Of a DNA stretch of 64,000 nt, positions 45,133-59,090 are shown piece by piece (the first letter of the stretch is position 1; every line of letters begins with the position of its first letter). A program made the translations under genes and the position numbers. Location: positions 1,697,501 through 1,761,500 of the forward strand of contig NZ_CP046046.1 in the NCBI RefSeq assembly GCF_009676705.1, in the 5' to 3' direction. The notes under the pieces were generated by a model that saw only the letters and a program-made list of their open reading frames with translations, did not search any database and had not been told where the DNA came from. This stretch comes from Spiribacter sp. 2438 (lineage in GTDB: Bacteria > Pseudomonadota > Gammaproteobacteria > Nitrococcales > Nitrococcaceae).

Positions 45133-45426
45133 TCAACGGTATTTCATGATCTCCATGAGTTCGTCCACCATCTGATCCGCGTCACCCCGCGCCTGAGCGC
45201 TGGTGACGTGGTGATGGAGGTGGCTGCGAAGCACCGAGTCCCCCACCTTGGCCAGGGCACCATCCACGGCCTTTAGCTGGCGCAACACGTCAACGCAGTA
45301 CACGTCATCCCGCTCCAGCATTCGGACAATGCCCTCGACGTGGCCCCGGACCGAGGCCAGTCGACGCCGGGCGGACTCGCGGACCTCCGGATCAAGCGCG
45401 AGCTGGCACTGGGTCATGTCGTCCAT
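45133..45426 (-). CDS. CsoR/RcnR-family metal-sensing repressor with C-H-H site
   Basis: 97-residue all-helical DUF156 protein. The predicted metal ligands are C44 (VYCVDVLRQ), H69 and H73 (RSHLHHHV), spaced +25 and +29. CsoR uses C-H-C for Cu(I); RcnR uses C-H-H for Ni/Co, so this site resembles RcnR. Yet it is fused by overlap to a copper-type ATPase gene: its ATG (AGGAG 7 bases upstream) lies inside the last 35 bases of copA. Copper, nickel or another metal cannot be settled from sequence. It probably represses the promoter upstream of copA. Confidence 0.88.
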
Positions 45427-47920
45427 CGGTACGCTCCTGTCTTTGATGGCGCGGCTGGAAGCCTCGGAGCCGCAGTGAGTTGCTGAGCACGAACAGGCTG
45501 GAGAGGCTCATGGCGGCGGAAGCGGCCATGGGGTTGAGGAGCCAGCCCGTGAGGGGGAACAGGGCACCCGCTGCCACCGGGATCAGCAGGGTGTTGTAGC
45601 CGTAGGCCCAGAAGAAGTTGCCCTTGATGGTGCGATGGGCGCGGCGAGCCAACTCAACCGCATCCAGTATGCCGTTGAGATCCGGGCGCATGAGCACCGC
45701 ATCGCCGGCCTCGATGGCCACGTCCGTGCCGGTGCCGATGGCGATCCCCACATCGGCGCGGGCCAGCGCCGGCGCGTCGTTAATGCCGTCACCAACAAAG
45801 GCCACTCGCCGGCCCTCATTCTGCAGGCGCTCGACCTCCCGGGCCTTGCCATCCGGCCGGACTCCGGCCATCACCTCATCAATGCCCAGCTGACGGGCCA
45901 GGGCGTTGGCAGTGGCCGCCTGGTCACCGGTGACCATGGCCACCTGCAGACCCAGGGTTTTTAGGGTGGCGACCACCGAGGCGCTTTCCTCGCGAGCGGG
46001 GTCCGCAATGCCGAGCACCCCCACCAGCTGACCGTCCACGGCGGCATACAGGGTGGTGCGTGCATCATCGGCCAAGCGCTGAACCGTGTCCGCCACGCTG
46101 TCGACGTTGACACCGAGCCATTCCATGTAATGCGCCGCGCCAATGTGCACGTAACGTCCCTCCACCTGAGCTTCGACGCCGAAACCGGTGACCGACTGAA
46201 ACTCACTGGCGGCGGGAATGCTCAAGCCGCGGGATTTGGCCGCCTCAACAATGGCAGCAGCCAGCGGGTGCTCGCTGTGCTGCTCCACGGCGGCCACCAG
46301 CCGCAGGGTTTCGTCCTCGGCACCGGCGGCCACTTCCAGCTCGGTGAGCTGGGGGCGACCCAGGGTCAGGGTGCCGGTTTTGTCCAGCACCACCGTATCC
46401 GCCTTGGCCAGGGCCTCGAGGGCCGCGCCGCGGCGCATGAGCATGCCGTTGGACGCCCCCTTGCCAATGGCCACCATGACCGCGGTGGGAGCCGCCAGGC
46501 CCATGGCACAGGGACAGGCAATCAGGAGCACGCTGACCGAGGCCACGAAGGCATAGGAGAGCACCGGCTCCGGCCCGATGGCCAGCCAGGTCACCGCGGT
46601 CAGCAGCGCCACGGCGATGGCCACCGGCACGAACACGCCGGCGATGCGGTCCGCCAGTGCCTGAATCGGCGGTTTCTCGGCCTGGGCGCGTTCTACCATG
46701 CCGATGATCTGTGCCAGCACGGTGTCGCCGCCCACGCGGGTTGCCCGGAACACCAGTGAGCCCTGGCCATTGACGGTGCCGGTCACCAGCTCATCGCCGG
46801 CGGCCTTGGACACCGGCACCGGTTCGCCGGTGACCATGGACTCATCCACCCGGGAGTGGCCCTCGACCAGTTCACCGTCCACCGGGATCCGCTCCCCCGG
46901 ACGAACCAGCACGTGGTCATCCACCCGGACGTCATCGATGTCCACTTCCACCGGCTCGCCGTCGCGCATGACCCGGGCCGTGCGGGACTGCAGTTCCAGC
47001 AACGCCCGGATCGCCTGGGAGGTCCGGCCCCGGGCAATCTGCTCGAGATAACGGCCCACCAGCACCAGCGTAATGATGACGCCGGCGGCCTCGAAGTAGC
47101 TGCTGGCGGTGCCTTCGGGGAATATCCCCGGCACCAGCAGGGCGAGCAGTGAATAGAAATAGGCCGCACCGGTGCCGATCATCACCAGGCTGCTCATGGC
47201 CGGCGCCAGGTGGCGCATTTCCTTGATACCGCGCTCAAAGAAACCACGGCCCGCCCAGAACATCACCGGCGTGACCAGCAGGAATTCCAGGGCGACCCAG
47301 GCCCGCTCAGGCATCCACTGGGTAAAGAACTCGTGGCCACCCGGGACGTGACGGCCCATGGCAATGATAACCAGGGGCAGGGTAAATGACGCCGCGATAA
47401 TCATCTGCCGACGCAGTGCACCCTCCTCACGGGCCTGCACGGCGGACAGATCCGCGCCGGCGTCCGCCCCGTGGCCTTCGCCGTCGCTGGCGCCCTGCTC
47501 AACGCCGTATCCGGCAGCTTCTACGGCGGCCACCAGATCGGGGCGGGAAACGGCGCCGCTGAGCACGCTGACCCGGGCGCGGCTCAGGCCCAGATCGACG
47601 CTGGCCTCAAGCACGCCGGGGACCCCGGCCAAGGCCTGTTCCACGCGGCGGACGCAACCGCCACAGGTTACGCCGGTCAGGTTCAGGGTGATGGAGTCCC
47701 GGGCCGGCGGATAACCCGCCTGGTCCAGCGCGTTGGCCGCCTCCGCCAGCACCGCGGTGGTGTCGGCGGAGTCGGACAGGGTCAGATGGGCACGGCCGGT
47801 GGCGAGGTTGACCGAGGCCGACTCAACCCCGGAGACGCCGGTAAGAGCCGTTTCGGCGTGGTGGACGCAACTGCCGCAGGTCAAGCTGGTGACCATCAAT
47901 TCGGTTTGCTTCGCTGACAT
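45392..47920 (-). CDS. copA: P1B-type copper-exporting ATPase
   Basis: 842-residue inner-membrane pump. Two N-terminal HMA domains carry TCGSC (C15/C18) and TCGGC. The TM metal site is CPC in [17 protein letters not shown], the phosphorylation loop DKTGTLTLG, and there are [20 protein letters not shown] and SEHPLA motifs. C-terminal [22 protein letters not shown] fits PIB-1 (Cu+) ATPases. The MSAKQ start at 47920 is preceded by a weak GGATAGGA. The gene overlaps the downstream repressor, and a promoter with an operator-like C6G6 palindrome sits 30-60 bases upstream. Confidence 0.95.
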
Positions 47921-47951
47921 GAATCCTATCCGCCATTGCCAATGTGCAGCC

Positions 47952-47982
47952 AGCATACCCCTCCCCCCGGGGGGTCGGTCAA
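47952..47982 (-). promoter_or_regulatory. copA promoter with C6G6 operator in a 19-bp spacer
   Basis: Reading leftward, TTGACC (47982-47977) and TATGCT (47957-47952) are separated by 19 bases. The spacer contains the palindrome CCCCCCGGGGGG (47963-47974), the C/G-tract type that CsoR/RcnR repressors recognise. Together with the overlapping repressor gene this suggests autoregulation by metal. Activity is inferred. Confidence 0.55.
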
Positions 47983-47992
47983 ATGCACACAC

Positions 47993-48043: not shown

Positions 48044-49786
48044 TTAGTCGCGCTCACCGGCGGCCATCCACTCTTCCATCATCTGGTCGTAGTCCATGGT
48101 CTCACCCTGCGGCATCTCATTGTCGAGACGCGGCTTGGGTGCGCCCGGCTGACTCAGCCAGTACTCCGGATCCCGTGCCTCGTTCATCACCGGTGCGTAG
48201 GTGTCAAACACCTCGGCCCGGGCCAGACGATCCATGGTGCGGTCCAGTGCCTGCGCCAGGTTGTCGAGGCCTTCCTGCGGCGTCACCTCACGGCTCATGA
48301 CCGGAGCCAGGTTCTGCCACCAGAGCGGAGCCATACGCGGATAGTCAGGAATGTTGGTTCCTGTCGGCGTCCAGAAGCTCTCGTTCGGGCTGCGGTAGAA
48401 CTCCACCAGACCACCCAGCTGCGGAGCCCGCTCGGTCATCTGGTCGGAGAAGATGTCGGACCGACGAATCGGCGTCAGGCCCGCCATCAGCTTCTCCAGC
48501 GAGGTGGTCTTGGCCACGGTGAACTGACCGAACAGCCAGGCCGCGGTGCGACGATCCTCAGGCGTAGAGTCAAAGAAGGTCCAGGAGCCCACGTCCTGAT
48601 AACCCACCTTCATGCCCTCTTCCCAGTACGGGCCCACCGGTGACGGTGCCATCCGCCACAGCGGGTTGCCCTCGTCATCGGTCACGGCCACCTCGGGGTC
48701 GACCATGGCCTCAGTAAAGGCGGTGTACCAGAAAATCTGCTGAGCGATGTTGCCCTCGGCAGGCACAGGACCGGCCTCGCCAAAGGTCATGCCAGCGGCC
48801 TCCGGCGGTGCGTAGGCGTGCAACCAGTCAACGGCCTTGGTCATGGCGAACACCGACGCCGGCGCATTGGTGCCACCACCGCGGGTTACACTACAACCCA
48901 CCGGGTTGGCGTCCTCGTCCACCCGGCAGCCCCAGTCGTCCACGGGGTTACCGAACGGCACGCCGGTGCTGCCCATGCCGGCCATGGACAGCCAGGAGTC
49001 ATGGAAGCGCCATCCCAGGGAGAAGTGGCGGCGACCATAGTCCATGTGACCATAGATACGCTCACCATCGATCTCACCAACGTGCTCGGTGAAGAACTCG
49101 GCGATCTCCTCATAAGCGGTCCAGTTCAGGGGAACACCCAGCTCATAGCCGTAGATGTCCTCGAACTGCGCCTGGAGATCCGGATCGGTGAACCAGTCAT
49201 AACGGAACCAGTAAAGGTTCGCGAACTGCTGGGCCGGCAGCTGGAAAATGCTGCCATCCGGGCCGGTGGTGTACTGAATGCCGATGAAGTCATCCAGGTC
49301 CAGGGTCGGCAGGGTGAAGTCCGCCCACTCGTTCTCCATGGCTTCGGAGAGGTTGATGGTGGTGCCGTAGCGGATATGGGTGCCGATGGCATCGGAGTCG
49401 TTGATGTAGCCGTCGTAGATGTTACGACCAGTCTGCATCTGGGTCTGCATGGTATCAACCAGGTCACCCTCACCGATGATGTTGTGAGTCACCTCAATAC
49501 CCGTGAGCTCGGTGAAGGCCGGAGCCAGCACGTCCCGTTCAAAAATGTGAACCGCTAGCGTCTCGGCAACGGTGCTGATTTCAAGCCCACGGAGTGGTTC
49601 GGCCGCTTCGGCAAACCATTCCAGCTCTGCAATCTGCTCCTCCCTTGAAAGCGTCGAGTTGACGAACACCTCGTCAACCAGCCGCTCAATAACAGCATCG
49701 CGGTCGTGATTGTCGGCAAACGCCATGCCCGGCCCTGCGGCCAGGGCGCCGGCGAGCGCCGCCAGGATCAGACTATTTTTCTTCAT
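48044..49786 (-). CDS. glpV: glycerol ABC transporter substrate-binding protein
   Basis: Periplasmic binding component of the GlpSTPQV glycerol importer. 580 residues: signal peptide 1-24 (MAFA-DN) and a large MalE/extracellular solute-binding family 1-like domain (AETLAVHIFERDVLAPAFTELTGIEVTHNIIGEGDLVDTMQTQMQTGRN). Length and order agree with rhizobial GlpV. GAGG precedes the ATG. A 5-bp hairpin (49817-49831) lies in the 64-base gap upstream, and a strong terminator follows the stop, so the gene may be expressed at a different level from the permeases. Confidence 0.9.
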   Translation of the reverse strand: MKKNSLILAALAGALAAGPGMAFADNHDRDAVIERLVDEVFVNSTLSREEQIAELEWFAEAAEPLRGLEISTVAETLAVHIFERDVLAPAFTELTGIEVTHNIIGEGDLVDTMQTQMQTGRNIYDGYINDSDAIGTHIRYGTTINLSEAMENEWADFTLPTLDLDDFIGIQYTTGPDGSIFQLPAQQFANLYWFRYDWFTDPDLQAQFEDIYGYELGVPLNWTAYEEIAEFFTEHVGEIDGERIYGHMDYGRRHFSLGWRFHDSWLSMAGMGSTGVPFGNPVDDWGCRVDEDANPVGCSVTRGGGTNAPASVFAMTKAVDWLHAYAPPEAAGMTFGEAGPVPAEGNIAQQIFWYTAFTEAMVDPEVAVTDDEGNPLWRMAPSPVGPYWEEGMKVGYQDVGSWTFFDSTPEDRRTAAWLFGQFTVAKTTSLEKLMAGLTPIRRSDIFSDQMTERAPQLGGLVEFYRSPNESFWTPTGTNIPDYPRMAPLWWQNLAPVMSREVTPQEGLDNLAQALDRTMDRLARAEVFDTYAPVMNEARDPEYWLSQPGAPKPRLDNEMPQGETMDYDQMMEEWMAAGERD

Positions 49787-49850
49787 GACTACCTCGTAGC
49801 TTTCTTCTGTTGGATATCCCCTGATCGGGGACTCTCTTCCTCACTCCGGG

Positions 49851-50126
49851 TTAACCCCAGCGCAGCAGAATCGCCATCCAGACGAGCTGCAGCCCCAGCG
49901 CTACCCAAAGACTGATGTCGGTAAATCCGACAAAAAACACGTGAATATAGGCCGATGTCAGCAGGCCGATGAAAAACCGGTCACCCCGCGTGGTGGCAAT
50001 GGGCAGAAAGCCCTTGCGCTCCTGCGTGGGAGACACCAGTTCCCAGACCGTCATCGCCGCCAGCGCCGAGGCGATGGCGATGAAAAACACCGCGGTAATG
50101 GGAGTCCAGACCATCCAGTCGAGCAT
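49851..50126 (-). CDS. DUF2160 small membrane protein of the glycerol transporter cluster
   Basis: 91 residues with about three hydrophobic helices (4-27, 50-68, 72-90), matching the DUF2160 proteins that sit between glpQ and glpV in rhizobial glycerol operons. Its exact role is unknown; membership of the transporter complex or assembly are both possible. It lies 15 bases after glpQ and 64 bases before glpV on the same strand. Confidence 0.85.
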   Translation of the reverse strand: MLDWMVWTPITAVFFIAIASALAAMTVWELVSPTQERKGFLPIATTRGDRFFIGLLTSAYIHVFFVGFTDISLWVALGLQLVWMAILLRWG

Positions 50127-50141
50127 GTGCCGGTCCCCCCC

Positions 50142-50968
<827 letters not shown>

Positions 50969-50972
<4 letters not shown>

Positions 50973-51859
50973 TTGCCACCTCCCACATCAGCCAGGCGTT
51001 CTTTCTGCATATTCATGATGGTGACGTAAAACACGTAGCTCACCGCGAGAACGATCAGGAAGTAAATGATGGAAAACGCCGCCGACGGACCGAGGTCCTG
51101 CTGGGCCACGGCCATGGTGGTCAGCGTCTGACTCAGGAACGTGGTGGAGCTGCCGGGCCCGCCACCGGTGAGCACGAAGGGCTCGGCGTAAATCATGAAC
51201 GAGTGCATGAACCGCAGCAGCACGCCGATGACCAGCACATTGGTGAGTTTGGGCAGCTCGATGTAGCGGAAGATCGCCCAGCGGGAGGCCCGGTCGATGC
51301 GGGCGGCCTGGTAATAGGCCTCGGGGATCGCCCGCAGGCCGCTGTAACACAGAAGCGCGATCAGTGGCGTCCAGTGCCAGACATCCATAAGGATGATAGT
51401 GACCCAGGCGTCCAGCGAGCTGCGGGTAATGTTGTAGCTGACGCCCAGGACGTTATTGAGGGTGTACCCGGCCAGCCCGATATCCCCACGAGTGAAGATC
51501 TGCCAGATACTGCCGACCACGTTCCAGGGGATGAGCAGCGGCATGGCAATGAGGATCAGCACGGCGGATGCCTGCCAGCCCTTTTTGGGCATGAGCAGCG
51601 CGATTCCGATACCCAGCGGCACCTGAATCGCCAGAATGGTGAACGAGAAGAAGAACTGGCGTCCCAGGGCCGCTTGCAGCTGGGGGTTCTGGAGGGTTTC
51701 CCGAAACCAGTCACCGCCAACAAAAAACGCCGACCGCCCCAGGATGTCCTGAATCGAGTAGTTGACCACGGTCATCAGCGGGATGATGGCGGTAAAGGCC
51801 ACCAGCACCAGCACCGGCAGCACCATGAACCACGCTTTTTGATATTCGGTTTTATCCAC
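50969..51859 (-). CDS. glpP: glycerol ABC transporter permease
   Basis: 296-residue MalF/UgpA-type permease with six helices and the coupling loop EAYYQAARIDRASRWAIFRYIELP. It is the GlpP position partner of the downstream GlpQ. It lies 11 bases after the glpT stop and overlaps glpQ by 4 bases. The C-terminus faces the cytosol (MNMQKERLADVGGGK). Confidence 0.9.
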
Positions 51860-51870
51860 GTCGTCTCCCC

Positions 51871-52941
51871 CTAGCCGACGAGCCGGTCGTCGGCGTACAG
51901 CAGCGCGTTCTCGGTGGGGAACACCACCTGCAACCCGTCGCTGCCGATTTTTTCTGATTCATCCAGGCGCACATGCACCCGGTGATTGCCCAGGTAGCCC
52001 GTCACCAGCTGGTAGTCACCCAGATCTTCCACCGAATGGACCTGGACCCGGTGTCCGCTCTCACCCTCGCCGGCGGCGCGGATCAGGCCGGGCCGGATGC
52101 CGAGCTGCAGCGAGCCGCCGTGCTGACGGGCCGCCTCCGCCATGGCGGGGTCCACCGTGATGTGCTCGCCATCGACAATGGCGCGGGAGCCATCCACTGT
52201 GCACTCCATGAAATTCATGCCCGGGCTGCCGATGAAGTAACCGACGAACGTGTGAGCCGGCCGCTCGAAGAGCTCCTGGGGCGTGCCCAACTGCAGCACC
52301 TGCCCGGCCAGCATGACGGCCACCTTGTCGGCAAAGGTCAGTGCCTCGGTCTGATCGTGGGTGACGTAAACCAGGGTCAGGGCCAGCTGCTCATGAATCT
52401 CCCGCAGCTTGCGGCGCAGCTGCCACTTCAGATGGGGATCAATCACGGTGAGCGGCTCGTCGAACAGCACCGCGGAAACATCCTCGCGCACCAGGCCGCG
52501 GCCCAGGGAAATTTTCTGCTTGGCATCCGCCGTAAGGTTCTTGGCCCGGCGATTGAGCGCTCCTTCCAGGCCCAGCATGGTGGCGATGTGCTGCACCCGC
52601 TGGCTGACGTAGGCCTCGTCCATGCGGCGGTTGCGCAGCGGGAACGCCAGATTGTCGAACACGCTCATGGTGTCGTAGATCACCGGAAACTGGAAAACCT
52701 GACCGATGTTGCGGTCTTCCGTGCGCGTGTGGGTCACGTCGGTCTCATCGAACATGACCTGCCCCTCGGAGGGGGCCACCAGCCCGGAGATGATGTTCAG
52801 CAGTGTGGTCTTACCGCAGCCGGACGGCCCCAGCAGGGCGTAGGCGCCACCGTCTTCCCAGACATGCTGCATCGGCTGCAGGGCGTAGTCGCCGCCGGGG
52901 GCGTACTGATGGCCGAGGTTTCTGAGTTCTATTCTTGCCAT
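51871..52941 (-). CDS. glpT: glycerol ABC transporter ATPase with degenerate signature
   Basis: 356 residues. The nucleotide-binding domain has Walker A GPSGCGKT (38-45), Walker B VLFDE (158-162) and a normal switch histidine H195 (YVTHDQTEAL). The LSGGQ signature is replaced by LTADAKQK (136-143). A C-terminal TOBE-like regulatory domain follows (GIRPGLIRAAGEGESGHRVQV). It is named by position in GlpSTPQV. Its partner GlpS has a normal signature but lacks the switch histidine, so the two errors fall in the same composite ATP site. glpS lies 5 bases upstream. Confidence 0.9.
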   Translation of the reverse strand: MARIELRNLGHQYAPGGDYALQPMQHVWEDGGAYALLGPSGCGKTTLLNIISGLVAPSEGQVMFDETDVTHTRTEDRNIGQVFQFPVIYDTMSVFDNLAFPLRNRRMDEAYVSQRVQHIATMLGLEGALNRRAKNLTADAKQKISLGRGLVREDVSAVLFDEPLTVIDPHLKWQLRRKLREIHEQLALTLVYVTHDQTEALTFADKVAVMLAGQVLQLGTPQELFERPAHTFVGYFIGSPGMNFMECTVDGSRAIVDGEHITVDPAMAEAARQHGGSLQLGIRPGLIRAAGEGESGHRVQVHSVEDLGDYQLVTGYLGNHRVHVRLDESEKIGSDGLQVVFPTENALLYADDRLVG

Positions 52942-52946
52942 GTCGT

Positions 52947-54032
52947 TTATCCGCGCTCCGTTGCCGGGGAGGCCACCAGGCGCTCTTCTTGATCAAAGGC
53001 GTAAAGGCGGGACGGGTCGAAGTGCACATTAAAGGCTTCGCCGGGATGGACCATGTGCACGCCCCGCTCCAGCACCACCCAGTCATGGCCGCCCACTTCC
53101 AGATGAATATAGGTCACCGAGCCCGCAATCTCCGCCACCTCCACGGTGCCCGCCAGGTCAATGCCGTGCTCCCCGACGCTGCTCGCAAACAGGTGGTGGG
53201 GCCGCACGCCCAGGGTGTAACTGCCCGGCGCCAGGTCGGACATGTGGGCCGGCAGCGGCTCATCCAGCAGGCCACCGACCACCATGCGCCCGTCGCGGAC
53301 GTCGGCTTCGATCAGGTTCATGGGCGGATCGGAGAACACCTGGGAGACCGTCACCGTGGCGGGGTTGCGATAGGTCTCGGCGGTCAGGCCATGCTGAACC
53401 AGCCGACCCTCGTGGAGCACCGCGGTTTTGCCCCCCAGCACCAGCGCCTCTTCAGGCTCGGTGGTGGCGTAAACAATGACCGTGTCCCGGTCCTTGAACA
53501 GTTCCCGCAGTTCCGCCCGCAGTCCCTCGCGGAGCTTGTAGTCGAGGTTCACCAGTGGCTCGTCCAGCAGGATCAGCTTGGCGTCGCGCACCAGAGCGCG
53601 GGCCATGGCGCACCGCTGCTGCTGGCCACCGGACATTTCCAGGGGCATGCGATCCAGCAGGTGGTCAATGCCCAGGCGCTCGGCCTCGGCCCGTACCCGC
53701 CGATCGATCTCGGCCTTGGAGAGTTTCGCCAGCCGCAGGGGCGAGGCGATGTTGTCGTAGCAGCTCATCGCCGGGTAGTTGATGAACTGCTGGTACACCA
53801 TGCCCAGCGAGCGCTTCTGGACCGGCGTGGCGGTTACGTCCACGTTGTCCTCGAGCACCCGCCCCTTGCTGGGGGGCTCGAGCCCGGCCATGACCCGCAT
53901 GAGCGTGGTCTTGCCCGCCCGGGTCAGACCCATAAGCACGTTGAATTCCCCGCGCTCGAAGGTCAGGTTGATATCTTCAAGATGGACCTCACCCCCAACG
54001 GTGCGGCTCACCCCCTCCAAAACCAGGCTCAT
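52947..54032 (-). CDS. glpS: glycerol ABC transporter ATPase lacking the switch histidine
   Basis: 361 residues. Walker A is GLTRAGKT (35-42), the signature is MSGGQQQR (133-140), Walker B is LILLDE (153-158), but the switch position is T191 (YATTEPEEAL) instead of His. A C-terminal MalK-like domain (LGVRPHHLFA) follows. It is the partner of GlpT, whose signature is degenerate, so one composite site looks intact and the other lacks both elements. The ATG at 54032 overlaps the last base of the glpD stop. Confidence 0.9.
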   Translation of the reverse strand: MSLVLEGVSRTVGGEVHLEDINLTFERGEFNVLMGLTRAGKTTLMRVMAGLEPPSKGRVLEDNVDVTATPVQKRSLGMVYQQFINYPAMSCYDNIASPLRLAKLSKAEIDRRVRAEAERLGIDHLLDRMPLEMSGGQQQRCAMARALVRDAKLILLDEPLVNLDYKLREGLRAELRELFKDRDTVIVYATTEPEEALVLGGKTAVLHEGRLVQHGLTAETYRNPATVTVSQVFSDPPMNLIEADVRDGRMVVGGLLDEPLPAHMSDLAPGSYTLGVRPHHLFASSVGEHGIDLAGTVEVAEIAGSVTYIHLEVGGHDWVVLERGVHMVHPGEAFNVHFDPSRLYAFDQEERLVASPATERG

Positions 54033-55561
54033 TACGCAGTTGCCCTCTTCTTATTTTCGCCGCCGAACCAGGTGCCGACCCGCTGGCGCTGGTTCTCGTC
54101 CAGCATCAGGCCCACTTTGGTGCGACGCCAGATGGCGTCTTCGGCGGTCATTGCCCATTCATACTGTGCCAGATAACGGAGCTCCGCCTCATACAGGTCA
54201 GCTCCGAAATGCTCCCCCAGGTCATCCAGCGACGCCGCCGATCCCAGCATGCGTTCGGTCTCGGTGCCGTAGTTGCGGGCCAGGCGCCAGGCCATGTCCT
54301 CGGGCAACCAGGGCCGGGACTGGCGCAGGGCGTCCAGATAGGCCTCGAAGTCGCCATTGGGAATATCGCCCCCGGGCAGCGGCTGATCACCAGTCCAGTC
54401 AGTGATTTCCGCACCCAGCAGCGGCGCGATCCGGTCCACGGCCTGGCGGGCCAGCGTGCGGTAAGTGGTGATCTTGCCGCCGAACACCGACAACAGCGGC
54501 GCGGCGCTGTCATCCAGGTCCAGACTATAGTCGCGACTCACCGCCGAGACATTGTCCTCTTCGGACTCGTCGTACAGCGCGCGGACGCCGGAATAGGTCC
54601 AGACCACGTCGGCGGGGGTGATTTCGCGCTTGAAATAACGGTTCACCGCGTCGCAGAGGTACTGAATCTCTTCGTCACTGGCCGTCGCTTCGGCCGGGTT
54701 GCCTTCATAGGCCACGTCGGTGGTGCCAATCAGGGTGAAATGCTGTTCGTAGGGAATGGCGAAGATGACGCGGCCGTCGTTGTTCTGAAACAGGTAGGAA
54801 TCTTCATGTTCGAACATGGACGGCACGACGATATGACTGCCCTTGACCAGGTGGACATCCTTGTCGTCATTCCGCTGCATGGCGTCGCTGAGCAGCCGGG
54901 CCACCCAGGGGCCGGCGGCATTCACCACGGAGCGGGCCTGGATGGTCTGCTTCTGGTCCGTGGTGGTGTCGGTGAGCTCCACCTGCCAGCTGTCGCCATT
55001 GCGCTGGGCGCCGGTGCAGCGGGTGCGGGGCAGGACACGGCCGCCGCGGGCCTCAACGTCCATGCAGTTCAGCACCACCAGGCGGGAGTCCTGGACCCAG
55101 CAGTCCGAGTACATGAACCCCTTGCGAAGACTGTCGTCCAGGGGCTGTCCCGCATAGTGCTGCTGCAGGTTGATCCCCTTGGAGCCCGGCAGTTTCTTGC
55201 GGCCGCCGAGGTGGTCATACAGAAAGAGGCCCATGCGGATCATCCATGCCGGCCGCAGTTCTTTGACGTGGGGCATGACAAAGCGCAGCGGCCAGATGAT
55301 GTGCGGGGCGATGCCCATGAGCACTTCCCGCTCTTTCAGGGCTTTCTGAACCAGCCGGAACTCGTAGTACTCGAGATAGCGAAGGCCGCCGTGGACCAGC
55401 TTGGTGCTGGCGGATGAAGTGTAATTCGCCAGATCACCCTGCTCGACCAGCAGGACCTTCAAGCCGCGACCGGCCGCATCGCGGGCAATACCTGCGCCGT
55501 TAATGCCGCCACCAACAACGATCACATCGTAGCTGTCTGAATGCTCAGCCGTGGAAGACAC
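54032..55561 (-). CDS. glpD: glycerol-3-phosphate dehydrogenase, aerobic FAD type
   Basis: Oxidises glycerol-3-phosphate to DHAP at the membrane and reduces quinone. The 509-residue FAD enzyme has DVIVVGGGINGAGIARDAAGRGLKVLLVEQGDLANYTSSASTKLVHGGLRYLE, RARSVVNAAGPWV and GVRALYDESEEDNVSAVSRDYSLDLDD. The GTG start at 55561 has GGAGGAGAGG 6 bases upstream. It heads the glpD-S-T-P-Q-DUF2160-V run and has its own promoter and putative GlpR operator upstream. The end overlaps glpS by one base. Confidence 0.96.
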   Translation of the reverse strand: MSSTAEHSDSYDVIVVGGGINGAGIARDAAGRGLKVLLVEQGDLANYTSSASTKLVHGGLRYLEYYEFRLVQKALKEREVLMGIAPHIIWPLRFVMPHVKELRPAWMIRMGLFLYDHLGGRKKLPGSKGINLQQHYAGQPLDDSLRKGFMYSDCWVQDSRLVVLNCMDVEARGGRVLPRTRCTGAQRNGDSWQVELTDTTTDQKQTIQARSVVNAAGPWVARLLSDAMQRNDDKDVHLVKGSHIVVPSMFEHEDSYLFQNNDGRVIFAIPYEQHFTLIGTTDVAYEGNPAEATASDEEIQYLCDAVNRYFKREITPADVVWTYSGVRALYDESEEDNVSAVSRDYSLDLDDSAAPLLSVFGGKITTYRTLARQAVDRIAPLLGAEITDWTGDQPLPGGDIPNGDFEAYLDALRQSRPWLPEDMAWRLARNYGTETERMLGSAASLDDLGEHFGADLYEAELRYLAQYEWAMTAEDAIWRRTKVGLMLDENQRQRVGTWFGGENKKRATA

Positions 55562-55625
55562 GAATGCCTCTCCTCCGTTGCCTGTGAGTCGCGACTATGT
55601 TGCCGCTTATTCATGTTCGGAATCA

Positions 55626-55671
55626 AACATACCACCGGAAACTGACCCGTCAACCCGAAAATTAACGAAAA
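55626..55671 (-). promoter_or_regulatory. glpD promoter with GlpR-type direct-repeat operator
   Basis: Reading leftward, TTTTCGTTAATTTTCG (55671-55656) is a direct repeat of TTTTCG at 10-bp period. It is directly followed by a -35 box TTGACG (55653-55648), a 16-bp spacer and a -10 box TATGTT (55631-55626). The repeat differs by one base from the one upstream of glpK. Repression of glpD and its transporter genes by GlpR is inferred. Confidence 0.6.
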
Positions 55672-56460
55672 TCACTCCGTGGTGACGATTAGTTCCACGC
55701 CCTGATCGGCCATCAGCTGCTGCAGCTGCGGGGATGGCGGTGCATCGGTGTACACCTGGCTGATCTGGTTGAGATGGGCCACCCGTACCAGGGCCCGCCG
55801 ACCGAACTTGCTCTGATCGGCGCCCAGCAATACCGACCGGGCATTGCCCAGCAGACCCTGCAGCACCCGAACCTCGCGATAGTCGAAATCCAGCAGGGTG
55901 CCGTCGGCATCAATCCCGGAGATCCCCATCACGGCGTAGTCCACCTTGAACTGGTTCATGAAGTCGATGGTGGCCTCGCCGGTGATGCCCCGGTCGCGAT
56001 GACGGACCACGCCGCCGGCGACAATCACTTCGTTCTCGGCGCTGTCCGCCAGCAGCATGGCGACGTTGAGATTGTTGGTGATCACCCGCAGCCCGCGATG
56101 ATCCCGCAGCGCCGCGGCCACGGCCTCGGCGGTGGTGCCCAGGGTGATGTACAGCGACGCCTCGTCGGGTATGCGCTGGGCGATGGCCGCGCCGATTCGC
56201 TGCTTGGCTTCGGGATTGAGCACCTGACGGGTCTGGTAGGCGACGTTCTCGACGCTGGAAGGCAACCCGGCCCCGCCGTGGTAGCGCCGCAGCAGCCCGG
56301 CGCCGGACAGATCGTTAATGTCCCGGCGAATGGTCTGGGCGGTGACGTCGAACTGCTCCGCCAGTCCCTCCACCGAGGCGAACCCGCGCTCGCGGATCAG
56401 GTTCATGATGGCCTGCTGGCGCCCGTTCAGCATTAGCCCCTCATCATCACTGGTGACCAC
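55672..56460 (-). CDS. glpR: DeoR-family glycerol regulon repressor
   Basis: 262 residues (253 if the ATG at 56433 is used). The N-terminal DeoR helix-turn-helix is MLNGRQQAIMNLIRERGFASVEGLAEQFDVTAQTIRRDINDLSGAGLLRRYHGGAGLPS, followed by the sugar-phosphate-sensing domain (YITLGTTAEAVAAALRDH, VIVAGGVVRHRDRGITGEATIDFMNQFKVDYAVMGISGIDADGTLLDFDYREVRV). It is positioned between glpK (divergent) and glpD with matching operators on both sides. Sensing glycerol-3-phosphate is typical for GlpR. Both starts have usable ribosome sites. Confidence 0.94.
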   Translation of the reverse strand: MVTSDDEGLMLNGRQQAIMNLIRERGFASVEGLAEQFDVTAQTIRRDINDLSGAGLLRRYHGGAGLPSSVENVAYQTRQVLNPEAKQRIGAAIAQRIPDEASLYITLGTTAEAVAAALRDHRGLRVITNNLNVAMLLADSAENEVIVAGGVVRHRDRGITGEATIDFMNQFKVDYAVMGISGIDADGTLLDFDYREVRVLQGLLGNARSVLLGADQSKFGRRALVRVAHLNQISQVYTDAPPSPQLQQLMADQGVELIVTTE

Positions 56461-56474
56461 CCCACTCCTCCCGG

Positions 56475-56512
56475 TTTTCGTTATTTTTCGCCTTTGAACG
56501 CCAAACTTGACT
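56475..56512 (+). promoter_or_regulatory. glpK upstream GlpR-type operator and -35 box
   Basis: TTTTCGTTATTTTTCG (56475-56490) is a direct repeat with 10-bp period, one base different from the glpD site. TTGACT at 56507-56512 is a good -35 box for glpK; the -10 (near TCATAC at 56531) is weak. GlpR probably represses glpK and itself from here. Inference from the shared motif. Confidence 0.55.
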
Positions 56513-56584
56513 TTTCATGGCGGAATTCGATCATACCGCGACAGACGAAGCGCGCAACAAATGCACGAGGAGGAGGGCAGCGGC

Positions 56585-58072
56585 ATGGCTGAACGCGACG
56601 GCATCCTGGCGATCGATCAGGGCACAACCAGCTCACGAGCCATCGTTTTCGACACCGATGGCCGCATAATGGCCACTTCACAGCAGGAGTTCCCCCAGCA
56701 CTATCCCCACAGCGGCTGGGTCGAGCACGACCCGCAGGACCTGTTGAACTCCACCGTCAGTACCTGCACCCGGGCATTGAAGGCGGCGAAGGCCGCGGGG
56801 GTGCATGCCCGCACCATCGGCATCACCAACCAGCGCGAGACCACCATCGTCTGGGACCGCCGCACCGGCGAGCCCATCCACAACGCCATTGTCTGGCAGG
56901 ACCGGCGCACCGCCGAGCGCTGCGCCGCCCTCAAGGCCGCCGGCCACGAACCGCTGGTGGCGGAACGCACCGGCCTATTGCTGGACCCCTACTTTTCGGC
57001 CACCAAGATCGCCTGGCTACTGGATAACGTGCCCGGCGCCCGGGCCCGCGCGGAAAAGGGCGAACTGGCGTTCGGCACCGTTGACACCTGGCTGCTCTGG
57101 AAACTCACCGGCGGCCGCAGCCACGCCACCGATGCCACCAACGCCAGCCGCACGCTGCTGTTCGACATCCACCGCCAGACCTGGGATGACGAGCTGCTGG
57201 CCCTGTTCGACATCCCTCGCGCCATCCTGCCGGAGGTGCGGGACAGTGCCGCCGACTTCGGCGTCACGGACGCCGAGGTGCTGGGCACCGAGCTGCCGGT
57301 GGAGGGCATCGCCGGCGACCAGCACGCCGCCGTGGTGGGTCAGGGATGTTTTGAGCCGGGCATGATCAAAAGCACCTACGGCACCGGCTGTTTTGCGCTG
57401 ATCAACACCGGCGAGGAGGCGGTGCCTTCCCGTAACCGCCTGCTCACCACCACCGCCTATCGCATCAACGGCAAGCCCACCTACGCCCTGGAGGGCGCGA
57501 TTTTCATCGCCGGCGCCGCCATTCAATGGCTGCGGGACGAACTGGGCATCATCGCCCACGCCTCCCAGAGCGAGGGGCTGGCCAACGACGCCGAAGCTGA
57601 AGGCCTGTACCTGGTGCCCGCCTTCACCGGCCTGGGTGCTCCCTGGTGGGACCCCAATGCCCGGGGCGCCATTTATGGACTGAATCGCAACACCGGCGTG
57701 GCGGAGTTTGTTCACGCCGCCCTGGACTCGGTCTGCCTGCAGACCGGCGACCTGCTGGAGGCCATGGCAGGCGATTCCAGCACGCCACAGAATACCCTGC
57801 GGGTGGACGGCGGCATGGTGGCCAACAGTTGGCTGTTGCAGCGGCTGGCGGACCTCACCGGCCTGGCGGTGGAACGCCCGGAAGTCATTGAGACCACGGC
57901 GCTGGGGGCGGCGTATCTGGCCGGACTGCAGCACGGCTTCTACAACTCGCTGGACGATCTCAACTCCCAGTGGGCACTGGATGCGCGCTTCGAGCCCGCC
58001 ATCAGTCGCAGTGCCCGGGAGCATATCGTCGAGGGCTGGCACGACGCGGTCCGGCGCACGCTGACCACCTGA
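56585..58072 (+). CDS. glpK: glycerol kinase
   Basis: Phosphorylates glycerol to glycerol-3-phosphate. The 495-residue FGGY kinase starts with [17 protein letters not shown]. It has [42 protein letters not shown] with the glycerol-binding residues, [25 protein letters not shown] and [21 protein letters not shown]. The ATG at 56585 follows a GAGGAGGAGG run. It diverges from glpR with a putative operator between, and feeds GlpD with substrate brought in by GlpSTPQV; no glpF is present. Confidence 0.97.
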
Positions 58073-58137: not shown

Positions 58138-58581
58138 ATGCAGTATCTCCACACCATGGTGCGCATCAGCGACATCGACGAGTCGCTGCGGTTCTACTGC
58201 GGGCTGCTGGGCATGGAAGAGATCAGCCGCCGTGACCACGAGGCGGGGCGCTTCACGCTGATTTTTCTGGCAGCGCCGGCGGACGTGGACCGGGCCCGCT
58301 CCGATGACCGGGCCCCGATGCTGGAACTGACCTGGAACTGGGACCCGGAAACCTTCAGCGGCGGACGCAACTTCGGCCACCTGGCCTATCGGGTCAATGA
58401 CATTTACGGCCTGTGCCAACGGCTGATGGACAATGGGGTCACCATCAACCGGCCACCCCGGGACGGCCGCATGGCCTTCGTCAAGTCGCCGGATGGCATC
58501 TCCATTGAACTGCTGCAGAGCGGCGACCCACTGCCCGAGCAGGAACCCTGGGTGTCCATGCCCAACACCGGGAGCTGGTAG
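58138..58581 (+). CDS. gloA: lactoylglutathione lyase (glyoxalase I)
   Basis: Converts the methylglyoxal-glutathione hemithioacetal to S-lactoylglutathione. The 147-residue protein has the metal ligands H5, E63 (MLELTWNW), H81 (NFGHLAYRV) and E124 (GISIELLQ) in the order of GloA (E. coli 135). Methylglyoxal is a by-product of glycerol and DHAP metabolism, which fits its place right after glpK. The ATG at 58138 follows CTGGAGG. tspO starts 2 bases after its stop. Confidence 0.94.
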   Translation: MQYLHTMVRISDIDESLRFYCGLLGMEEISRRDHEAGRFTLIFLAAPADVDRARSDDRAPMLELTWNWDPETFSGGRNFGHLAYRVNDIYGLCQRLMDNGVTINRPPRDGRMAFVKSPDGISIELLQSGDPLPEQEPWVSMPNTGSW

Positions 58582-58583
58582 TC

Positions 58584-59090
58584 ATGGCCGCAACGCTGCC
58601 CATGGATGATCGGCGCCGGGACCTGCTGGGTCTCGGCGGCTGGACCCTGCTGGTGGTGGTCACCGCCATGGGCGGCATCCTCAGCCCCCCGGGGGACTGG
58701 TACGCCGCGCTTCAAAAACCCCCGCTCACGCCACCGAATGCGGTGTTCCCGGTGGCGTGGACGCTGCTGTACGCCACCATGATCGCCGCGGCCTGGATGG
58801 TATGGCGGCGGGTGGGGCTGCTGGCCGGCATGGCCGCGCTGCTGCCGTTCATTGCCCAGCTGGGGGCCAACGGGCTCTGGAGCATCGTGTTTTTCCAGTG
58901 GCACCGCCCGGATCTGGCGCTGGTCAACCTGGTGGTGCTGTGGCTGCTGGTGGCGCTGACCATTGTTCGATTCCGGCGCGTTCATCCGCCGGCGGGCTGG
59001 CTGCTGCTGCCCTACCTGGCATGGCTGACTTTCGCCGGCTATCTGAACATCGGCATTATCGTGCTCAACGGGCCGGCACCGCCGGCCTGA
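58584..59090 (+). CDS. TspO/MBR family membrane protein
   Basis: 168 residues with five predicted helices and the family signature WYAALQKPPLTPPNAVFPVAWTLLYATM plus QLGANGLWSIVFFQWHRPDLALVNLVVLW and a final FAGYLNIGIIVLN. TspO proteins bind porphyrins and act in stress and tetrapyrrole responses. It lies 2 bases after gloA. The convergent LysR gene ends 7 bases away. Confidence 0.93.
   Translation: MAATLPMDDRRRDLLGLGGWTLLVVVTAMGGILSPPGDWYAALQKPPLTPPNAVFPVAWTLLYATMIAAAWMVWRRVGLLAGMAALLPFIAQLGANGLWSIVFFQWHRPDLALVNLVVLWLLVALTIVRFRRVHPPAGWLLLPYLAWLTFAGYLNIGIIVLNGPAPPA

Follow-up and report, generated by a model that had tools for sequence, protein, structure and literature searches.

The glycerol gene cluster and its DeoR-family regulator

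The window, by which we mean the whole 64-kb stretch of DNA that was analysed, carries a cluster of glycerol genes in which glpR adjoins both glpK and glpD (Table 1). The glpK gene is divergent from glpR, and glpD, followed by six transporter genes, continues in the glpR direction. The family scan of glpK was begun one codon past the ATG chosen as its start. The make-up of the six transporter genes looks like that of a GlpSTPQUV-type glycerol ABC importer. Relatives of the importer binding protein were encountered on 398 plasmid records, with Rhizobium as the most frequent name. Regarding the surroundings of the cluster, two open reading frames after glpK (58140-58581 and 58584-59090) were judged by eye to be glyoxalase I-like and a TspO-like membrane protein, respectively, and an adjoining frame of 866 residues (45392-47992) reads like a copper-type P-type ATPase.

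The product of glpR matched the Pfam families HTH_DeoR (70.4 bits, cut-off 21) and DeoRC (160.4 bits, cut-off 31.8). The best of the 15 NCBIfam families matched was the GlpR equivalog PRK10906.1, whose score of 290.1 bits is below the cut-off of 331; we therefore call the protein GlpR-like, without counting it as a member of the NCBI equivalog. In comparison with the E. coli K-12 GlpR region, a stretch of 198 residues matched at 48% and 44 helix-turn-helix residues matched at 43%, with QTIRRD in common. The search of the PDB returned one match, 7l6l, which covers the sensor part only and is named deoxyribose operon repressor.

Table 1. Genes, promoters and predicted regulatory sites of the glycerol cluster, with positions in the window.
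Feature	Position	Strand	Basis or description
glpR, DeoR-family repressor, GTG start	55672-56460	-	HTH_DeoR and DeoRC domains
glpK, glycerol kinase	56585-58072	+	ATG at 56585 chosen (conserved in alignment); listed frame opens at 56507
glpD, glycerol-3-phosphate dehydrogenase	54032-55561	-	family search
Six transporter genes downstream of glpD	48044-54032	-	2 ATPases, 2 permeases, DUF2160 small membrane protein, binding protein
glpK-side 16-mer TTTTCGTTATTTTTCG	56475-56490	+	two TTTTCG half-sites 10 bp apart
glpD-side 16-mer TTTTCGTTAATTTTCG	55656-55671	-	two TTTTCG half-sites 10 bp apart, between glpR stop codon and glpD -35 box
glpD promoter TTGACG-N16-TATGTT	55626-55653	-	promoter pattern search
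Main glpD operator (predicted), inverted repeat TATGTTTGATTCCGAACATG	55612-55631	-	over -10 box and expected transcription start
glpK promoter TTGACT-N16-GATCAT	56507-56534	+	promoter pattern search
glpK/glpR inverted-repeat GlpR-type operator (predicted) ATTTTTCGCCTTTGAACGCC	56483-56502		4 bp upstream of glpK -35 box

Two direct repeats of TTTTCG flank glpR

The initial annotation had placed a direct repeat of TTTTCG, with one helical turn between the copies, on each side of glpR, and a pattern search found both 16-mers at these coordinates and on these strands, with a step of 10 bp, one in the glpK/glpR and the other in the glpR/glpD promoter region. When up to three mismatches were allowed, these were the only two sites in the window, and two or more matches were obtained in none of 100 dinucleotide-preserving shuffles of the window (mean 0.04). 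Across the genome of 1,900,931 bases they are the sole matches with 0-2 mismatches; eight others have three mismatches each, and a backwards control pattern gave two matches at up to three mismatches. The hexamer TTTTCG itself is present 31 times in the window when both strands are counted. Within spacings of 6-15 bp, same-strand pairs of this hexamer are found in the window with a 10-bp step only and at these two places only, and the pairing is therefore not a chance clustering of a common hexamer. Near-identical stretches of 10 bases, TTTTCGTTAT and TTTTCGTTAA, occur at both promoters, each exactly 10 bp from the next half-site.

On the glpD side, the stop codon of glpR (55672-55674) directly abuts the 16-mer. 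The glpD promoter described by the initial annotation was recovered by the promoter pattern search, but the overlap that it had drawn between this promoter and the 16-mer was not, as 2 bp separate the end of the repeat from the downstream -35 box. It should be noted that these sites were not named in the titles and abstract openings of the papers listed in searches on DeoR-family and direct-repeat operators, on GlpR sites and on the importer.

Inverted repeats are conserved at the glpD and glpK promoters

A GlpR protein search of 59 genomes yielded a match in 25 of them. Both promoter regions were aligned for 12 genomes of the genus, giving 13 rows per side, in which G010 is represented by two copies and G009 by one contig per side; G003 and G007, in neither of which GlpR was matched, are outside this alignment. 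A symmetric matrix was built from 24 sites of same-genus relatives, the window being left out, and scored on the window and on 10 single-base shuffles of it.

The top match in the window, at 26.1 bits, is the inverted repeat over the glpD -10 box, the best matches of the shuffled windows lying between 6.7 and 11.9 bits. This site was overlooked by the initial annotation, which described the direct repeat instead, and is the strongest predicted operator of the locus. It has the form of an E. coli-type operator, an inverted repeat of about 20 bp with TGTTCG/CGAACA arms, and is conserved at the glp promoters of relatives. Of the 14 genomes of the genus, 11 contain its core, ATGTTYGANNNCGAACAT, without mismatch, one of them twice, and the 12 perfect sites all lie directly downstream of glpR. 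G011 has the core with a single mismatch, and G003 and G007 have 2-mismatch matches only. The strongest common element of the aligned glpD promoters is TATGTTTGAANNCGAACAT over the -10 box, with one or two letters differing in some rows, and all 13 rows have both arms of the inverted repeat, at positions +22 and +33 relative to the -35 box.

In the genome to which the window belongs, the inverted-repeat pattern has a single place without mismatch. With up to three mismatches, 20 forward and 16 reverse matches were counted, compared to 5 and 3 for the control, and this excess of weak matches (2-3 mismatches) could be due to further sites or to coding bias. An inverted-repeat-like match of 11.7 bits also lies inside the glpD coding sequence (54799-54818), and was rejected as an operator since its score is not above the best shuffled score of 11.9 bits. 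In the window, as in G002, G009 and G010, a sequence of this kind is separated from the operator of the promoter by 812-813 bp. This segment encodes MFEHED, and conservation of the protein sequence may account for its recurrence.

Shuffling of the region gave on average 0.3 promoters of the kind found here at glpD and glpK. The predicted operator next to glpK, ATTTTTCGCCTTTGAACGCC, is formed by the second TTTTCG copy (56485-56490), which is its left arm, and by the downstream TTGAACG; according to a reading by eye it also lies upstream of the glpR ribosome-binding site. With 9.3 bits it ranks fifth in the window and falls within the range of the best shuffled-window scores, so that the case for this site, weak by score alone, rests on position and conservation. 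Its left arm is found at -24 from the -35 box in 11 of the 13 rows and its right arm at -13 in 12 of them, both arms being shifted by 3 bp in G011 and the left arm falling under the threshold in G006. An arm of the TATGATCGA type overlaps the glpK -10 box in 13/13 rows, which conservation of the promoter itself could explain.

The extra half-sites vary within the genus

Under the proposal of the initial annotation, related genomes should also have the repeat in front of their glp genes. Such conservation was seen in part for the promoter-proximal half-sites, and not for the 16-mer as a unit. At up to two mismatches the 16-mer had 8 matches in 5 of the 13 other genomes of the genus, each with two mismatches, fewer than the backwards control pattern (24 matches in 8 of the 13). 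None of the 16-mer matches adjoins glpR, and the direct repeat was accordingly ruled out as a conserved unit.

The half-site threshold that was used admits about 7 matches per kb, both strands, in random sequence of 60% GC; single weak half-sites therefore mean little, and the weight lies with repeated positions. On the glpD side, 8 of the 13 rows have a half-site that precedes the -35 box by 9-10 bp; three rows (the window, G005 and G009) have a second one, another 10 bp upstream, and G011 has a half-site at -18 without partner. On the glpK side, the first TTTTCG copy (56475-56480), at -34 from the -35 box, is found in the window only (1/13 rows). It scores 6.7 bits, and because a kilobase of random sequence at 60% GC yields about three scores of at least 6, this half-site, taken alone, could be a chance occurrence.

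The extra TTTTCG copies might be functionless, as leftovers of short local duplications or as products of chance beside working inverted-repeat operators. This is what would be expected from the 8-12 extra bases of the window relative to the 12 other alignment rows on the glpK side, from the lack of a half-site at the extra glpK position in every other row and from the fact that half-sites scoring that high are not rare. It fits less well with the near-identity of the 10 bases at both promoters, placed exactly 10 bp from the next half-site in a pair that is unique in the genome, and with the half-site that G005 and G009 have at the same place upstream of glpD. Overall, we regard this account of the extra copies as possible, though not a likely one.

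Two further features of the alignment are recorded here. A direct pair of half-sites, 10 bp apart, lies between the -35 and -10 boxes of glpK in three of the 13 rows (L003, L004 and L011), the window being without it. In G010, two glpR copies (L003 and L026) are each accompanied by glpK-type and glpD-type promoter regions, and could reflect either a true duplication or a mixed assembly.

Half-site arrangements around glpR in wider relatives

After removal of near-duplicates and short pieces, 150 of 174 glpR-flanking regions were kept, and pairs of half-sites were counted in them and in shuffles that kept composition in 40-base blocks, and not dinucleotides. Facing pairs of relaxed half-sites at 10 bp are the commonest arrangement, with 39 pairs where 0.11 were expected, and facing pairs at 20 bp amount to 10 (0.07 expected). 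Direct pairs at 10 bp were counted 9 times with relaxed half-sites (0.20 expected), 6 times with strict ones (0.08 expected) and 12 times with the most permissive half-site definition, for which 1.6 were expected and the shuffles reached 6 at most. Relaxed direct pairs are similarly common at 21 bp (10, expected 0.30), 6 bp (9, expected 0.43) and 16 bp (8, expected 0.29); direct pairs are therefore enriched near glpR, but the 10-bp step is not singled out among the others.

The loci outside the aligned genus rows number 89 and include the genus member L039 as well as two pairs from the same record. Among them, direct repeats of half-sites at 10 bp were found upstream of glpR in L079 and downstream of it in L053, L057, L061, L083, L015 and L020; L057, L061 and L083 are alike and may count as one case. 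Around glpR elsewhere, direct repeats of half-sites are thus a minority arrangement.

These counts bear on the idea that GlpR reads half-sites on the same face of the DNA in either orientation, the operators being strings with a 10-bp step whose units are gained or lost singly, and that such a string has moved within the genus. In some relatives the additional half-sites occupy the spacer of the glpK promoter, between its -35 and -10 boxes, whereas in this species they precede both promoters. Against a strict one-face rule, direct pairs at 6 and 16 bp are as common as those at 10 bp, and we put this idea forward tentatively, as one that is more likely wrong than right.

The proposal of the initial annotation, that the direct repeat TTTTCG-N4-TTTTCG is the main operator and is read head-to-tail by GlpR, can draw on the restriction of such pairs in the window to the two glp promoters, on their uniqueness in the genome up to two mismatches, on the enrichment of 10-bp direct pairs around the glpR genes of relatives and on E. 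coli glpF, upstream of which TTCTCG and TGCTCG lie 10 bp apart. However, the partner copy at 10 bp is absent at glpK from all 12 other rows and at glpD from 10 of the 12 (it is present in two), whereas the inverted repeat is conserved at both promoters in the 13-row alignment and is about four times commoner elsewhere (39 compared to 9). In addition, the numbers of direct pairs at 6, 16 and 21 bp (9, 8 and 10) are close to the number at 10 bp (9), and the promoter-proximal copy at glpK doubles as an arm of the inverted repeat. We consequently find it quite improbable that the direct repeat is the main operator. That the sites serve another regulator, unconnected with GlpR, is scarcely credible, as the half-site matches the inverted repeat upstream of E. 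coli glpD and the perfect matches across the genus adjoin glpR only.

A predicted GlpR operator system with inverted repeats

Half-sites, spacing, conservation and gene neighbourhood can all be read from the sequence, and they lead us to conclude that the sites are very probably part of an E. coli-like system of GlpR operators with inverted repeats; this conclusion does not extend to the role of the extra half-sites. The position of the glpK operator, upstream of the -35 box, is a less usual one for a repressor and speaks against it to some degree. The regulator is likely to be the DeoR-family GlpR encoded between both sites. Control of kinase, dehydrogenase and transporter by a single repressor, as put forward by the initial annotation, is the best reading of GlpR-type half-sites in the glpK/glpR and glpR/glpD promoter regions with GlpR adjoining.

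Binding, repression and induction, which we infer from relatives, could then proceed as follows. GlpR would bind inverted repeats of the half-site TATGTTCGA in both promoter regions. At glpD, the -10 box and the expected start both lie under the operator, which makes occlusion of RNA polymerase likely; glpD and the downstream glycerol importer genes would thereby be silenced. On the other side, the bound repressor would sit within the glpR upstream region, with 4 bp between its operator and the glpK -35 box, and would probably repress both glpK and glpR, autoregulation of glpR being probable since the inverted repeat lies upstream of its ribosome-binding site. Through the 16-mers, head-to-tail half-sites are added at a distance of exactly one helical turn, on a shared face of the DNA, which would probably strengthen binding. 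GlpR would be released by glycerol-3-phosphate, by analogy with E. coli and P. aeruginosa. It is pure conjecture that binding might be cooperative along the phased half-sites, or that the DNA might loop between both promoters.

Taken together, the locus would be an ordinary case of GlpR operators, to which phased half-sites have been added specifically in this lineage. For a bacterium with a genome of 1.9 Mb, from a genus in which one genome (L039) bears the label Ectothiorhodospiraceae, the analysis predicts a GlpR regulon made up of glpK, glpR, glpD and the glycerol ABC importer, and it names exact candidate operators. The comparison across relatives provides a small case of operator half-site turnover, and illustrates that a striking direct repeat can belong to an overlooked inverted repeat.

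Comparison with known GlpR systems

E. coli K-12 has the same inverted repeat, TATGTTCGATAACGAACATT, at a distance of 33-52 bp ahead of its glpD start codon; it scores 28.2 bits with the matrix and is a GlpR operator. It is the counterpart of the site that covers the glpD -10 box in the window. Unlike in the window, glpD of E. coli is not followed by a glycerol ABC importer. The window further carries two half-sites in direct orientation upstream of the -35 box. Elsewhere in E. coli, the matrix gave 15.1 bits for the inverted repeat of the glpT-glpA intergenic region and only 6.0 bits at the glpF promoter, and a 9-kb stretch with glpD also contained matches of 17.1 and 16.0 bits at two further places, where we know of no operator. 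Because of the low glpF score and of these two matches, E. coli is not a clean control for the matrix.

Upstream of E. coli glpF, AGTTCG, TTCTCG and TGCTCG follow each other in 10-bp steps with an opposed CGATAA after them (the first and last read by eye), a layout equal to the TTTTCG-TTTTCG-TGAACG of the window. Three reports describe four GlpR sites, O1-O4, at the glpFK promoter (PMC2753651, PMC4117983, PMC5493358), and we infer that the string of half-sites coincides with them. E. coli glpFK and the window are alike in having several GlpR or GlpR-type sites at one promoter. The half-site array of the window differs from that of glpFK in adjoining glpR and in lying upstream of the -35 box. 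The glpD gene is counted among the classical GlpR operons of E. coli, which have 4-8 sites each (PMC7567609).

Regarding other bacteria, the Pseudomonas GlpR (P. aeruginosa and P. putida) is described as binding the glpFK and glpD promoters and responding to glycerol-3-phosphate (PMC9765544), and release of GlpR from DNA by this compound is known for both E. coli and P. aeruginosa (PMC4117983, PMC7567609, PMC9765544). Pseudomonas has the glpF facilitator where the window has an ABC importer. The window resembles the glycerol cluster of Rhizobium leguminosarum VF39 (glpR, glpD, glpSTPQUV and glpK), which has GlpR beside glpD, glpK and a six-gene glycerol ABC importer of the same make-up as that of the window, and which has a relative in Cupriavidus metallidurans CH34 (PMC7912956). 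The window is distinguished from the VF39 and CH34 clusters by a glpK divergent from glpR and by a glpD that heads the transporter genes.
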